Below are positions 3,693 to 59,264 of a stretch of DNA of 64,000 bases, piece by piece. The stretch's first letter is position 1. Every line of letters starts with the position of its first letter. The translations under genes were made by a program, and so were the position numbers. The DNA is taken from the NCBI GenBank assembly GCA_018335795.1, contig JAGXRP010000033.1:131973-195972 (forward strand), in the 5' to 3' direction. The DNA comes from Desulfobulbaceae bacterium (GTDB lineage Bacteria; Bacteroidota; Ignavibacteria; Kapaibacteriales; UBA2268). The notes beneath the pieces are model-generated. The model saw only the letters and a program-made list of their open reading frames with translations, was not told where the DNA came from and did not search any database.

Positions 3693-4682
3693 TTAGTCGT
3701 TCATATTCCATTTAACGTAAACGGCACCCCACGTAAAACCTGCTCCAAAGCTTGATAAAATTATATTATCACCTTTGTTGATTCTTCCGTTTTGATACCA
3801 CTCTGAAAGGCAAATAGGGATAGTAGCTGCAGTTGTGTTTCCATATTTTTCGATATTAATCATGACTTTTTCGGGATTAAGTTCCATTCTATTTGCAGTT
3901 GCAGCAATAATACGCAAATTTGCTTGATGAGGAACTAACCAAGAAATATCATCACTTGTGAGATTATTTTTTTTCATAATATCCACTGAAACATCTGCCA
4001 TTCCTTTTACTGCATGTTTGAATACAGCTTGACCATCTTGATAAATATAATGTTCTTGCGCTGCAACTGTTTCAGCCGAAGAAGGTTTTGCACTTCCACC
4101 GGCTTTTTGGTGCAGATATTGCCCGCCTAAGCCGTCTATATGTAAGATTTGGTCGAGGATACCCAGATTATCTTCATTAGATTTCTCGATTAAACAAACG
4201 CCTGCACCATCACCGAATAGGACTGCCTGAGCGCGGTCGTTAAAATTGACAATCGAACTCATTTTATCCGCTCCACACAAGAGTACTTTTTTTGCCATGC
4301 CAGATTCGACTAAACTTTTTGCTGTAGATATAGCAAATACAAACCCCGAGCATGCTGCTGAAATATCGAATCCCCAACAATTTTTGATTCCCAGTTTGTG
4401 TTGAACTAATGCTGCCGTTGACGGGAAAAAATGGTCTGGAGTAACTGTTGCTACCAAAATACAATCTATTTCATCTTTGTCTATTCCACGTTTTTCTATA
4501 CATTCCAAAGCAGCCGGGATTATCAAATCCGAAGTTCCGCCGGATTGAGCAAATCTTCTTTCTGCAATACCGGTACGAGCCATAATCCAATCGTGAGTTG
4601 TTTCGAGATACTTTTCAAAATACTCGTTTGTGTAAATTTCAGGTGGTAAGTAATGTGCAATTGATGTAATTGTTGCTGACAT
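3693..4682 (-). CDS. fabH: Beta-ketoacyl-ACP synthase III
   Basis: Starts fatty-acid synthesis by condensing an acyl-CoA primer with malonyl-ACP. The 329-residue protein carries the FabH triad: Cys111 in SAACSGF, His252 in VPHQANLRI and Asn282 in YGNTTAA. The C-terminal GAGFTWGA is also typical. It lies directly after plsX, as in the plsX-fabH-fabD-fabG order of many bacteria. The primer (acetyl or branched) cannot be read from the sequence. Confidence 0.97.
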   Translation of the reverse strand: MSATITSIAHYLPPEIYTNEYFEKYLETTHDWIMARTGIAERRFAQSGGTSDLIIPAALECIEKRGIDKDEIDCILVATVTPDHFFPSTAALVQHKLGIKNCWGFDISAACSGFVFAISTAKSLVESGMAKKVLLCGADKMSSIVNFNDRAQAVLFGDGAGVCLIEKSNEDNLGILDQILHIDGLGGQYLHQKAGGSAKPSSAETVAAQEHYIYQDGQAVFKHAVKGMADVSVDIMKKNNLTSDDISWLVPHQANLRIIAATANRMELNPEKVMINIEKYGNTTAATIPICLSEWYQNGRINKGDNIILSSFGAGFTWGAVYVKWNMND

Positions 4683-4696
4683 TTGTATGACTTTAA

Positions 4697-5716
4697 TTAG
4701 TTTATTAAATCTTTAAGTGTAGATTCTATTGATTTGTTAACTTCTTTCTGAACCATTTCTTTGGCTCTGACTAACATATTCTTAACTGCTTCGGGTGAAG
4801 ATTTGCCATGACCTATTATTACAACACCATTAACACCAAGCAAAGGTACGCCACCATACTTTTGATAATCAAACTGTTGCAAAATATCTTTTAAAATCGG
4901 TACCATCAACCCTACTTTGATTTTTTTTATAATACTTTCTTCGGAATAGTTTTTAATTTTTGATTTTAAAATTCCTAAGAAACTTTCAGCAAACTTCAAT
5001 ACGATGTTTCCGATGAAGCCATCACAAACTACAACATCGGCATGAGCTGAAAAGATATCACGTCCTTCGATATTTCCTATGAAATTCAAAGGACTTGCTT
5101 TTAGTAATTTGTATGTCTCACGCACATCATTAGTGCCTTTGGATTCCTCTTCGCCAATATTCAACAAACCAATCTTGGGATTTTTAATCCCCAGGATTTG
5201 AGAACAATAGATGCTTCCCATAACGGCGAACTGAAATATATATGATGGTTTTGCATCCACATTAGCTCCGACATCCAACAATAGTACAGGATTATCAGCA
5301 ACAGAAGGAAAAAAAGTACCGATTGTTGGTCTGCTTACCCCTGCGATACGTCCTAATACTAAAGTAGAAGTAGAATGAACTGCACCCGTATTACCGGAAG
5401 ATACGAAAGCATCAGCTTTTGCATCTTTGACAATTTCTATCCCTTTATAAAGCGATGAATCCCTTTTACGTTTGATAATATCGGTAGGTTCGTCATCCAT
5501 TGTAACTTTATCCTTACAATCAACGATTTCGAAATCTACTGATAAGTTCAAATTCTTGATTCTATTCCTTAGTAACTGCTCATCACCTGTGAGAATTATT
5601 TGGACATCATGGTTTTGAGGGTTGTTCATAAACTCTACAGCACCTTGAAGTTCACTATCGGGAGCGAAATCGCCACCCATTGCATCTAATACAATTTTTA
5701 TTTTGTTAACAGGCAT
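4697..5716 (-). CDS. plsX: Phosphate acyltransferase PlsX
   Basis: Makes acyl phosphate from acyl-ACP and inorganic phosphate; PlsY then uses acyl phosphate to acylate glycerol 3-phosphate. The 339-residue protein begins with the family motif VLDAMGGDFAP at about residue 9 and contains SSGNTGA and DVGANVDAKP, both typical of PlsX. Its position between rpmF and fabH is the classical yceD-rpmF-plsX-fab arrangement. It acts at the cytoplasmic membrane surface and links this operon to phospholipid synthesis. Confidence 0.97.
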   Translation of the reverse strand: MPVNKIKIVLDAMGGDFAPDSELQGAVEFMNNPQNHDVQIILTGDEQLLRNRIKNLNLSVDFEIVDCKDKVTMDDEPTDIIKRKRDSSLYKGIEIVKDAKADAFVSSGNTGAVHSTSTLVLGRIAGVSRPTIGTFFPSVADNPVLLLDVGANVDAKPSYIFQFAVMGSIYCSQILGIKNPKIGLLNIGEEESKGTNDVRETYKLLKASPLNFIGNIEGRDIFSAHADVVVCDGFIGNIVLKFAESFLGILKSKIKNYSEESIIKKIKVGLMVPILKDILQQFDYQKYGGVPLLGVNGVVIIGHGKSSPEAVKNMLVRAKEMVQKEVNKSIESTLKDLIN

Positions 5717-56515: not shown

Positions 56516-57715
56516 TTACAAAGAATTTAGTATATGTCCTAATTTTGTTCGTTTAGTTTCCAGATAATGTCTATTTGAATCATTCGGCTCAATTTGGAGA
56601 GGAATCAAATCTACAACTTCAAGACCATAACTTTCAAGTCCAACTCTCTTTCGTGGGTTATTTGTGATTAAAGACATCTTACGAATACCGAGGGAACGCA
56701 ATATTTGCGCACCAATACCATAATCACGCGGGTCAGGTGCGAATCCAAGTTCAACATTGGCTTCGACCGTATCAAGCCCGGCATCTTGAAGAGAATATGC
56801 TTTAACTTTATTTATTAGTCCAATGCCTCTACCCTCTTGGCGCATATAAAGCAATACGCCATTGCCTGCTTTGGCTATCATTTCGAGCGATTTTTCTAAT
56901 TGCTCACCACAATCACAACGTATAGACCCAAATACATCACCTGTCAGACATTCGGAATGAACTCTGACCAAAGTTGGCTTTTCGGGGTCAATTTCACCTA
57001 GAACTAAAGCTGAGTGCTCGAATTTATCAATTTCACTTTCGTAAACATGAACAATAAAATCACCATACTTTGTAGGCAATTTTGCCTCAGCAGTGCATTT
57101 TATCAAATTATCAGTCTTGAGACGATAAGCGATTAGGTCTTTTATTGTAATGATTTTCATATTATTTGCTTTGGCAAATTTAACTAATTCGGGCATGCGA
57201 GCCATCGAACCGTCTTCACTAATCATTTCGCATAATATACCGCTTGCTTTCAATCCCGCAAGTCTCATCAAATCAACTGTTGCTTCCGTATGTCCGGCAC
57301 GACGTAAAACGCCGCCTTCCTGTGCTACAAGCGGGAATACGTGACCCGGACGAAGCAAATCTGTTGGTTTAGTGTCAAGTCGAGCTACAGCTCTAACTGT
57401 AACAGCTCTATCAAAAGCTGAAATACCGGTTGAGGTACCATGAGCATAATCAACTGAAACAGTAAACTTAGTTTCGTGCAATGCAGAATTCACTCTAACC
57501 ATAGGCTCTAACTCGAGTTGTCTTGCGCGAGCTTCAGTAATAGCGATACAGATAAGACCTTTTCCTTTTGTGCTCATGAAATTGATTGTCTCGTGAGTAC
57601 AAAGCTCGGAAGCTGCTATCAAATCGCCTTCGTTCTCTCGGTCCTCATCATCCATAACGATAATGACCTTGCCTGAAGCAAGGTCAATCAAAGCCTCTTC
57701 AATTGTATTTAACAT
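56516..57715 (-). CDS. ribBA: Bifunctional 3,4-dihydroxy-2-butanone 4-phosphate synthase/GTP cyclohydrolase II
   Basis: Fused enzyme that makes both precursors of riboflavin. The first half (about 1-200) has the RibB motifs DDEDRENEGDLI and HTEATVDLMRLAG; the second half has GTP cyclohydrolase II with the zinc site in ECLTGDVFGSIRCDCGEQL and the catalytic MRQEGRGIGLI region. Both halves look complete. No FMN riboswitch fits in the 33-base gap to yajC. Riboflavin feeds FMN for the RNF complex, among others. Confidence 0.96.
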   Translation of the reverse strand: MLNTIEEALIDLASGKVIIVMDDEDRENEGDLIAASELCTHETINFMSTKGKGLICIAITEARARQLELEPMVRVNSALHETKFTVSVDYAHGTSTGISAFDRAVTVRAVARLDTKPTDLLRPGHVFPLVAQEGGVLRRAGHTEATVDLMRLAGLKASGILCEMISEDGSMARMPELVKFAKANNMKIITIKDLIAYRLKTDNLIKCTAEAKLPTKYGDFIVHVYESEIDKFEHSALVLGEIDPEKPTLVRVHSECLTGDVFGSIRCDCGEQLEKSLEMIAKAGNGVLLYMRQEGRGIGLINKVKAYSLQDAGLDTVEANVELGFAPDPRDYGIGAQILRSLGIRKMSLITNNPRKRVGLESYGLEVVDLIPLQIEPNDSNRHYLETKRTKLGHILNSL

Positions 57716-57748: not shown

Positions 57749-58063
57749 TTAGAGCTTGCTTGCAATAGACGCTTTTTCAAACTTCACTTTTACGTTATCT
57801 GCTATTTGGAGTGTAAAAGTTTTGTCATCTAAGTCTGAAACGGTACCGTGCATACCTGCAGTTGTTACAACTCGGTCACCCTTGCGAATATTAGAAAGCA
57901 TATTTTGATGTTCCTTTTGGCGTTTTTGTTGTGGTCTAATCATCATGAAATACATGATTGCAATTACAACGGCAAACATCAAAAGCATTGACATCATGCC
58001 ACCACCACCGCCATCTCCACCACCGGGAGGTGCCATCATTATTGTAGAAAAGATGTGATACAT
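57749..58063 (-). CDS. yajC: Preprotein translocase accessory subunit YajC
   Basis: Small membrane protein that associates with SecDF-YidC in protein export. The 104-residue protein has a glycine-rich N-terminus, one helix (about 24-42) ending in the family motif MMIRPQQKRQKEHQ, and a C-terminal domain beginning GDRVVTTAGMHGTV. The N-terminal GGGDGGGGG run is longer than usual but common in this phylum. It stands next to tgt, as in many genomes. Confidence 0.95.
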   Translation of the reverse strand: MYHIFSTIMMAPPGGGDGGGGGMMSMLLMFAVVIAIMYFMMIRPQQKRQKEHQNMLSNIRKGDRVVTTAGMHGTVSDLDDKTFTLQIADNVKVKFEKASIASKL

Positions 58064-58127: not shown

Positions 58128-59264
58128 TTAACCTTGATTTCCCTTGTAAATTTGGATAAATTCCCTTTTCCATTCCTTGAACTCTCCTGACAAAATCTTC
58201 TCTCTGGCAGTCCGAGCGAGCCAAAGATAAAAAGCAATATTATGCAATGATGCTAGTTGCAAACCAAGAATTTCATCAGCTATGAAAAGATGTCTTAAAT
58301 ATCCTAGTGAGAAATTTTGGCTGGCATATGAATCAACATTCGGGTCAATTTGTTCATTAGACAGCTTATATTTTGCATTTTTGATATTGATTTTGCCACG
58401 AGATGTGAACAATTGCCCGTTTCTTGCATTCCGTGTTGGCATTACACAATCAAACATATCTATGCCTCTTTCGATACATTCCAGTATATCAACAGGAGTG
58501 CCAACGCCCATCAAATATCGTGGCTTATCCTTCGGCAAAATATCTGTTGATAACTCTGTAATATCATACATCATTTCGTTTGGCTCACCAACTGAAAGAC
58601 CACCAATCGCATTTCCATCAAAATTGAGGTCTATCATTTTTCTCAAATACTCGACTCTCAAATCATTGTACATTCCACCTTGAGCTATCCCAAACATAAA
58701 TTGTTTATTACCATATTTCGGTGTTTTGGACTTGAAATACTCGATTGAACGCTCAGCCCAATCAAGAGAAAGATCCATAGACTTTCGTACATAAGTTCTA
58801 TCTGCCGGATAAGGAGCACATTCATCAAGAACCATCATGATATCGGAGCCTAAGTTCCGTTGAATATCAACAACGATTTCGGGGGTAAAAAAATGCTTCG
58901 AGCCATCAATATGAGATTTGAACTCTACACCGTCTTCAGTGATTTTCCGGATGTCTTTTAGCGAAAAAACCTGATAACCACCGCTATCAGTCAATATTGC
59001 CCGATTCCAATTCATGAATTTATGCAAACCACCGAATTCATGAATTGTATCATCGCCGGGTCGCAAGTAAAGATGATAAGTATTACCCAAAATGATACGA
59101 GTATCAAGCTCTAAAAGTTCACGTTGTTGAATTGCCTTGACTGTTGCATTTGTCCCAACTGGCATAAAAACGGGAGTTTCAATTTCGGCATAAGTTGTTT
59201 TCAGAATACCCGCTCTTGCCTTGCTTTCTCCGTCTTTTTTTATAAGTGTAAAAAATTCATTCAT
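58128..59264 (-). CDS. tgt: tRNA-guanine transglycosylase without zinc-site cysteines
   Basis: Exchanges guanine 34 in certain tRNAs for the queuosine precursor preQ1. I use the ATG at 59264; the frame allows a TTG one codon earlier. The 378-residue barrel keeps both key aspartates, Asp93 (TDSGGYQVF) and Asp272 (DMFDCVMPTRNA), and the binding-loop DECAPYP. The zinc site CDCYTC of E. coli reads VDSYAS (310-315) here, with only the later histidine (His341) left. From memory, other Bacteroidota also lack these cysteines, so this may be a lineage trait. Confidence 0.95.
   Translation of the reverse strand: MNEFFTLIKKDGESKARAGILKTTYAEIETPVFMPVGTNATVKAIQQRELLELDTRIILGNTYHLYLRPGDDTIHEFGGLHKFMNWNRAILTDSGGYQVFSLKDIRKITEDGVEFKSHIDGSKHFFTPEIVVDIQRNLGSDIMMVLDECAPYPADRTYVRKSMDLSLDWAERSIEYFKSKTPKYGNKQFMFGIAQGGMYNDLRVEYLRKMIDLNFDGNAIGGLSVGEPNEMMYDITELSTDILPKDKPRYLMGVGTPVDILECIERGIDMFDCVMPTRNARNGQLFTSRGKINIKNAKYKLSNEQIDPNVDSYASQNFSLGYLRHLFIADEILGLQLASLHNIAFYLWLARTAREKILSGEFKEWKREFIQIYKGNQG

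Follow-up and report, generated by a model that had tools for sequence, protein, structure and literature searches.

A tRNA guanosine(34) transglycosylase without the three zinc-binding cysteines in a Kapaibacterium-like bacterium, and the loss of the cysteine triad within Bacteroidota

The window, the whole stretch of 64,000 nucleotides analysed here, carries on its minus strand a tgt gene (58131..59264) that encodes a tRNA guanosine(34) transglycosylase of 378 amino acids when read from an ATG. A TTG lies one codon upstream of this start, and the stop codon occupies 58128-58130. The downstream neighbour, yajC (57749..58063, minus strand), is an open reading frame named from similarity in the neighbourhood scan and stands beside tgt as in the E. 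coli order; it is followed by an open reading frame at 56516..57715 (minus strand), presumably ribBA of riboflavin synthesis, as recognised from its sequence. Within the gene, Tgt residues 310-315 (58320..58337, minus strand) read VDSYAS in the place of the zinc-binding CxCxxC motif, and a gap-free alignment sets them against CDCYTC at residues 302-307 of E. coli Tgt (from NC_000913.3, row L235). Cysteines 302, 304 and 307 are replaced by Val, Ser and Ser, and the fourth zinc ligand, E. coli His333, has its equivalent in His341 (58242..58244, minus strand). The CxCxxC plus His site of zinc-dependent Tgt (E. coli/Z. mobilis type) is therefore incomplete in the window protein.

This confirms the first-pass annotation, which had described a Tgt without all three zinc cysteines, and which placed the motif at 58320-58340; the motif does lie there, and the extra codon in that span is the preceding Asn. 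A shift of the cysteines to a nearby place, one of the outcomes named in advance as fatal to this description, is ruled out for the window protein, since its last cysteine lies at or before residue 273. VDSYAS recurs unchanged in two congeners whose DNA around the motif differs by synonymous changes, which makes a sequencing error an unlikely source of the motif.

The protein matches the NCBIfam equivalog TIGR00430 with 502.4 bits (cut-off 306.75) and PF01702 with 516.6 bits (cut-off 26.3). Its nearest named relative found belongs to a Candidatus Kapaibacterium genome (L060), at 74% identity, and the window tgt is a Kapaibacterial gene. With a dN/dS of 0.022-0.028 across three congeners, it is under strong purifying selection. 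All 225 alignment rows keep the equivalents of Asp102, Asp156, Cys158, Val233, Glu235 and Asp280 (Z. mobilis numbering), Asp156 being presumably a functional residue as well. The catalytic pair expected of a bacterial Tgt, Asp102 and Asp280, corresponds to Asp93 and Asp272 in the window, so that the earlier observation of retained catalytic aspartates is borne out, and the preQ1-type pocket, Cys158 and Val233, corresponds to Cys149 and Val225. At the dimer hot spot, the equivalents of Tyr330 and His333 are found in all 225 rows and that of Phe92 in 222; the aromatic cluster of the window protein consists of Phe83, Phe318, Tyr322 and His325, matching Phe92, Trp326, Tyr330 and His333. Position 326, a Trp in Z. 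mobilis according to parts of PMC5395182, is a Phe in the window. The roles of most of these catalytic, base-recognition and dimer residues are set out in parts of PMC3660597, PMC5395182 and PMC4425180. How fold and dimer hold without zinc had been singled out as puzzling; the dimer is less so than suggested, because its known hot-spot residues are kept.

Partner genes of queuosine synthesis were sought by profile search in the window's genome, giving family matches for QueA, QueF and QueC. The assembly holds two equal-score QueC matches (G000:C57:27674-28300 and G000:C68:19569-20195) and two QueA matches (G000:C7 and G000:C63), a doubling that reflects a duplicate assembly, contamination or true paralogues.

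An AlphaFold2 model of the window protein reached a pLDDT of 91.0 and a pTM of 0.91, with block means of 97-98 at residues 301-360 and values below 70 only at 91-110. The loop at the lost zinc site is thus predicted to be well ordered without metal; the model was built from 51 relatives, six of them zinc-type, and any zinc-like backbone in it may come from these. Comparison against the 'pdb_via' library returned the Z. mobilis TGT structure 1q2r_A as the closest fold (Z 52.9, rmsd 1.7 over 373 residues), and the predicted model has the TIM-barrel fold of the solved Tgt structures.

The cysteine triad was then followed through the phylum. Within the window's order, 58 of 60 genomes gave a Tgt match, the window's own included, and none of the 57 others (L003-L059) has the triad; among these, the first cysteine is kept in one genome (L022) and the second in seven. 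A wider survey of genomes at least 90% complete found a match in 146 of 148, and the site was read in 96 of the 145 besides the window's own. These 96 comprise the 30 best-scoring genomes, which lean to the zinc type because that type scores higher against the Pfam profile, 7 already in the set and 59 chosen to cover further genera. None of the 11 genomes sharing the window's family or order has the triad. Beyond the order but within the class, all 24 genomes were read and 23 keep it, the exception being G147. From the rest of the phylum, 61 of the 110 genomes with a match were read: 59 lack the triad and two keep it, both of family f18, in whose class all four genomes searched keep it. Membership of the same order, class or phylum follows the labels of the search tool, and class names of groups without a name of their own are given here from their place beside named rows. 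Presence of the FMO protein family PF02327 in 10 of 10 genomes tested from families f21, f23 and f36, against 0 of 22 from elsewhere, assigns these families to Chlorobia; 11 of their 12 rows have only the third cysteine and one has none.

A further set of 80 named loci, which match the window protein best and do not form a random sample, contains six with the triad, one titled Ignavibacteriales and five 'Bacteroidetes bacterium'; loci titled with Bacteroidia orders, Balneolaceae or Rhodothermaceae lack it. Outside the phylum, the triad and the histidine are present in E. coli and in eight of eight control genes from Pseudomonadota, Bacillota, Fusobacteriota and Actinomycetota, and two of two Bacteroidales control genes lack the triad; these ten controls were hand-picked among 69 records with a match. 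The alignment across Bacteroidota, Ignavibacteria and Chlorobi that had been proposed as a check accordingly reveals a widespread loss, seen in the Chlorobia, Balneolia, Rhodothermia and Bacteroidia rows read, with Ignavibacteria-type genes mostly keeping the site. The first-pass statement that Bacteroidota homologues also differ here was right for the rows read, and it suggests that the cysteine loss could be familiar to specialists who work with such alignments. Loss of the triad is widely shared in the phylum and ordinary for the window's lineage, and is not a quirk of the window protein. Among the named loci, a contig titled Rhizobium sp. Q54 (L124) carries a Flavobacterium-like tgt and is probably misassigned.

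Mapping the losses on a tree, the second part of the proposed check, gave several changes. All Tgt trees exclude the zinc-site columns. Two FastTree trees, of 225 and 241 rows, require 4 and 5 changes of the kept state respectively. A quick tree built from 107 of the 225 rows also requires 5; a careful tree of 76 rows from that subset requires 4, and its starred branches force at least 2. Family f15, which lies inside the window's class, provides the most clear-cut independent case: of its 22 genomes, 20 gave a match and the site was readable in 19, with 11 keeping the triad and 8 lacking it. The triad-less members, from genera g58, g124 and g126, read FxSYTN. The occurrence of both forms in one family argues for repeated loss, which is likely from these sequence comparisons, while the gene-tree tests do not formally exclude a single one.

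A single deep loss would imply that Ignavibacteria-type genes later regained the zinc form by gene transfer. The one-clade topology is not rejected on the careful tree (p-AU 0.0583), nor on the quick tree (p-AU 0.843), where the constrained tree is 37 log units better than the result of a short free search. Against this scenario, the careful tree needs its 4 changes, and a single change is found in 0% of 200 bootstrap trees, from a bootstrap not fully settled; the same tree joins L147, which keeps the triad, with L176, which has lost it, at a support of 98/92, and both belong to the divided family f15. Gene order speaks in the same direction. The succession tgt, yajC, ribBA occurs in 19 of the 28 Kapaibacteriales loci long enough to scan, though 9 of the 28 show neither neighbour. 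In zinc-type loci of the phylum yajC lies next to tgt in 27 of 27 and ribBA is present in 14 of 27; yajC also adjoins tgt in E. coli, as it does in those Ignavibacteria loci of the zinc type that were examined, and most Bacteroidia loci scanned have a tgt-LptG order instead. The order often shared by Kapaibacteriales and zinc-type loci agrees with replacement in place, and a single loss followed by transfer is considered unlikely.

The composition of the site is all-or-none. In the set of 241 rows, from which duplicates, fragments and E. coli were removed, three cysteines occur in 42 rows, two in none, one in 40 and none in 159. The zinc-site histidine is kept in 42 of 42 three-cysteine rows; among the remaining 199 rows this position is His 138 times, Gln 60 times and Asn once, a distribution that takes no fewer than 26 changes on the FastTree tree. 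This pattern of cysteines together with histidine is as expected when a metal site is present as a whole or not at all. The statement that the histidine remains therefore holds for the window (His341) and not in general. The proposal that the site was replaced, not decayed, is upheld by the strong constraint on the gene, by the lack of any row with two cysteines and by a loop predicted to be well ordered without metal.

The replacing residues follow a limited repertoire. Position 307 in the 199 triad-less rows is Ser in 95, Asp in 67, Cys in 21 and Asn in 8 (191 of 199 for these four), while 198 of the rows have His or Gln at position 333. The usual residues at 302 are Leu, Gly, Phe, Ile or Ser, and those at 304 are Ser, Thr, Asn, Cys or Leu. 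Asp307 is paired with His333 in 65 of 67 rows; the two exceptions, L043 and L061, are identical sequences with a shortened loop and an uncertain alignment. This association is located in Bacteroidia-type rows and may reflect shared descent. Past position 265, the commonest cysteine positions in these 199 rows are 307 (21), 304 (18), 330 (12) and 321 (6).

Taken as a whole, the window gene most probably encodes an ordinary Tgt that inserts preQ1 and functions without structural zinc in the Kapaibacterium-like bacterium that carries it, both the absence of metal and the activity being deduced. No metal would be bound at the former zinc site, and the C-terminal loop would be held instead by packing and hydrogen bonds. 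The small polar side chain at 307 (Ser, Asp, Cys or Asn) may point towards the His or Gln at 333; such residues could cap a short helix and form a proposed hydrogen bond to residue 333 in the metal's stead, with position 302 filled by an aliphatic, aromatic or small residue. The enzyme would still dimerise and exchange G34 for preQ1, as suggested by the retention of the residues known to do so. For the phylum, the balance inclines, with some reserve, towards a Tgt that became zinc-free several times in Bacteroidota, each time all-or-none inside an otherwise unchanged enzyme, so that a structural metal long regarded as a requirement would have proved dispensable.

Two further positions may belong to a permissive background for the loss. 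Asn285 (E. coli numbering) is present in 199 of 199 lost rows versus 22 of 42 kept rows, and Trp340 in 181 of 199 versus 15 of 42; of the 11 genomes in family f15 that keep the triad, 8 already have both. Only 3 independent pairs are available on supported branches, too few for significance, and the association is a possible lead from the alignment and not a result. Ser216 and Lys290 were set aside as compensating residues, as their pairs went in both directions, and so was Gly275, which goes with the loss on average and is equally short of pairs.

Metal could instead still be bound through other ligands, for example Asp at 307, His at 333 and further Asp, Glu or His side chains. The pairing of Asp307 with His333 and the retained His341 of the window would fit such a site. 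The window, however, reads Val, Ser and Ser where the cysteines would stand and lacks any cysteine past residue 273, the histidine has turned to Gln in 60 of the 199 triad-less rows, and no new conserved set of metal-type ligands was seen in columns 296-345. The nearly fixed polar columns of this region (Asp299, Tyr314, His317, Glu323 and Asn334) all match E. coli. Continued binding of metal by such ligands is thus judged quite improbable.

A switch of substrate, to queuine, another base or another tRNA position, with zinc loss tied to that switch, is more doubtful still. It draws on a change at the equivalent of Z. mobilis Ala232, which is Ser in the window (in GGLSVGE, directly ahead of Val225), as it is in 162 of 193 cysteine-less rows versus 4 of 32 others; an Ala232Ser exchange is said in parts of PMC3660597 to cut the Z. 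mobilis kcat about 100-fold. Yet zinc-type genes from outside the phylum have Ser232 as well, in 4 of 8 cases (one of these genes being gapped there), the equivalents of Cys158 and Val233, the proposed setters of bacterial preQ1 specificity, are invariant in all 225 rows, and QueA is present in the genome. That the window Tgt is a decaying or non-catalytic paralogue, as its three missing conserved ligands and a second Tgt-like gene in the assembly might suggest, is hardly credible given a dN/dS of about 0.02, an intact active site, a single Tgt match in each of two congeners, and a second copy that sits on an 8,082-base contig, has a Bacteroidia gene order and groups with Bacteroidia.

The second copy (L140, on G000:C26, positions 4078-5208) has a Bacteroidia-like sequence and lies between a glycosyltransferase gene and LptG. 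Its contig is probably a contaminant, although the GC content of 0.349, set against 0.365 for the window, does not discriminate. The copy likewise lacks the three cysteines, and the idea of a zinc-bearing paralogue in the same genome is rejected.

Comparison with known systems places the zinc-free form preferred here as a variant of a familiar enzyme. The Tgt of Zymomonas mobilis and Escherichia coli (PDB 1q2r, 1pud; 10fb) shares its catalytic, base-recognition and dimer hot-spot residues with the window protein; the Z. mobilis enzyme has the fold of the window model, and E. coli has the same yajC neighbour, but their Cys3-His zinc site stands against Val, Ser, Ser and His in the window. Bacteroidia-type Tgt, as in Parabacteroides distasonis (L263) and Phocaeicola massiliensis (L272), is likewise without the three cysteines, reading GSDH at 302/304/307/333; it differs from the window in having Asp and not Ser at 307, and in its LptF/LptG neighbour in L263 and most Bacteroidia loci scanned. 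Zinc-type Ignavibacteria Tgt, for example that of L068, from the same phylum, shares 59% identity and the tgt-yajC-ribBA order with the window but, unlike it, keeps CDCYTC and the histidine. The window protein is a bacterial Tgt, and a variant apart from zinc-dependent Tgt.

Parts of PMC9508795 describe TGT, including the E. coli enzyme, as requiring zinc, with reference to Chong 1995, and parts of PMC6165067 attribute a zinc domain to human QTRT1 and mouse QTRT2 as well. No prior report of a zinc-free Tgt was found in the open-access literature searched, which is weak evidence, most subscription papers being outside that scope. Zinc is probably not needed by every Tgt. If Bacteroidota Tgt works without it, the rule that TGT needs zinc fails for a major phylum, and queuosine synthesis no longer depends on zinc supply at this step. 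The sister genera of family f15 with and without the triad offer a clean natural test of how a structural zinc is replaced.

More divergent Tgt-like genes also came to light. One Chlorobia genome carries a divergent second TGT-domain gene (L233, G177:C1:156635-158096; PF01702 E 1.6e-18) that the E. coli Tgt query missed. On enterobacterial plasmids, several matches are divergent Tgt-like genes annotated next to 16S rRNA methyltransferase genes.
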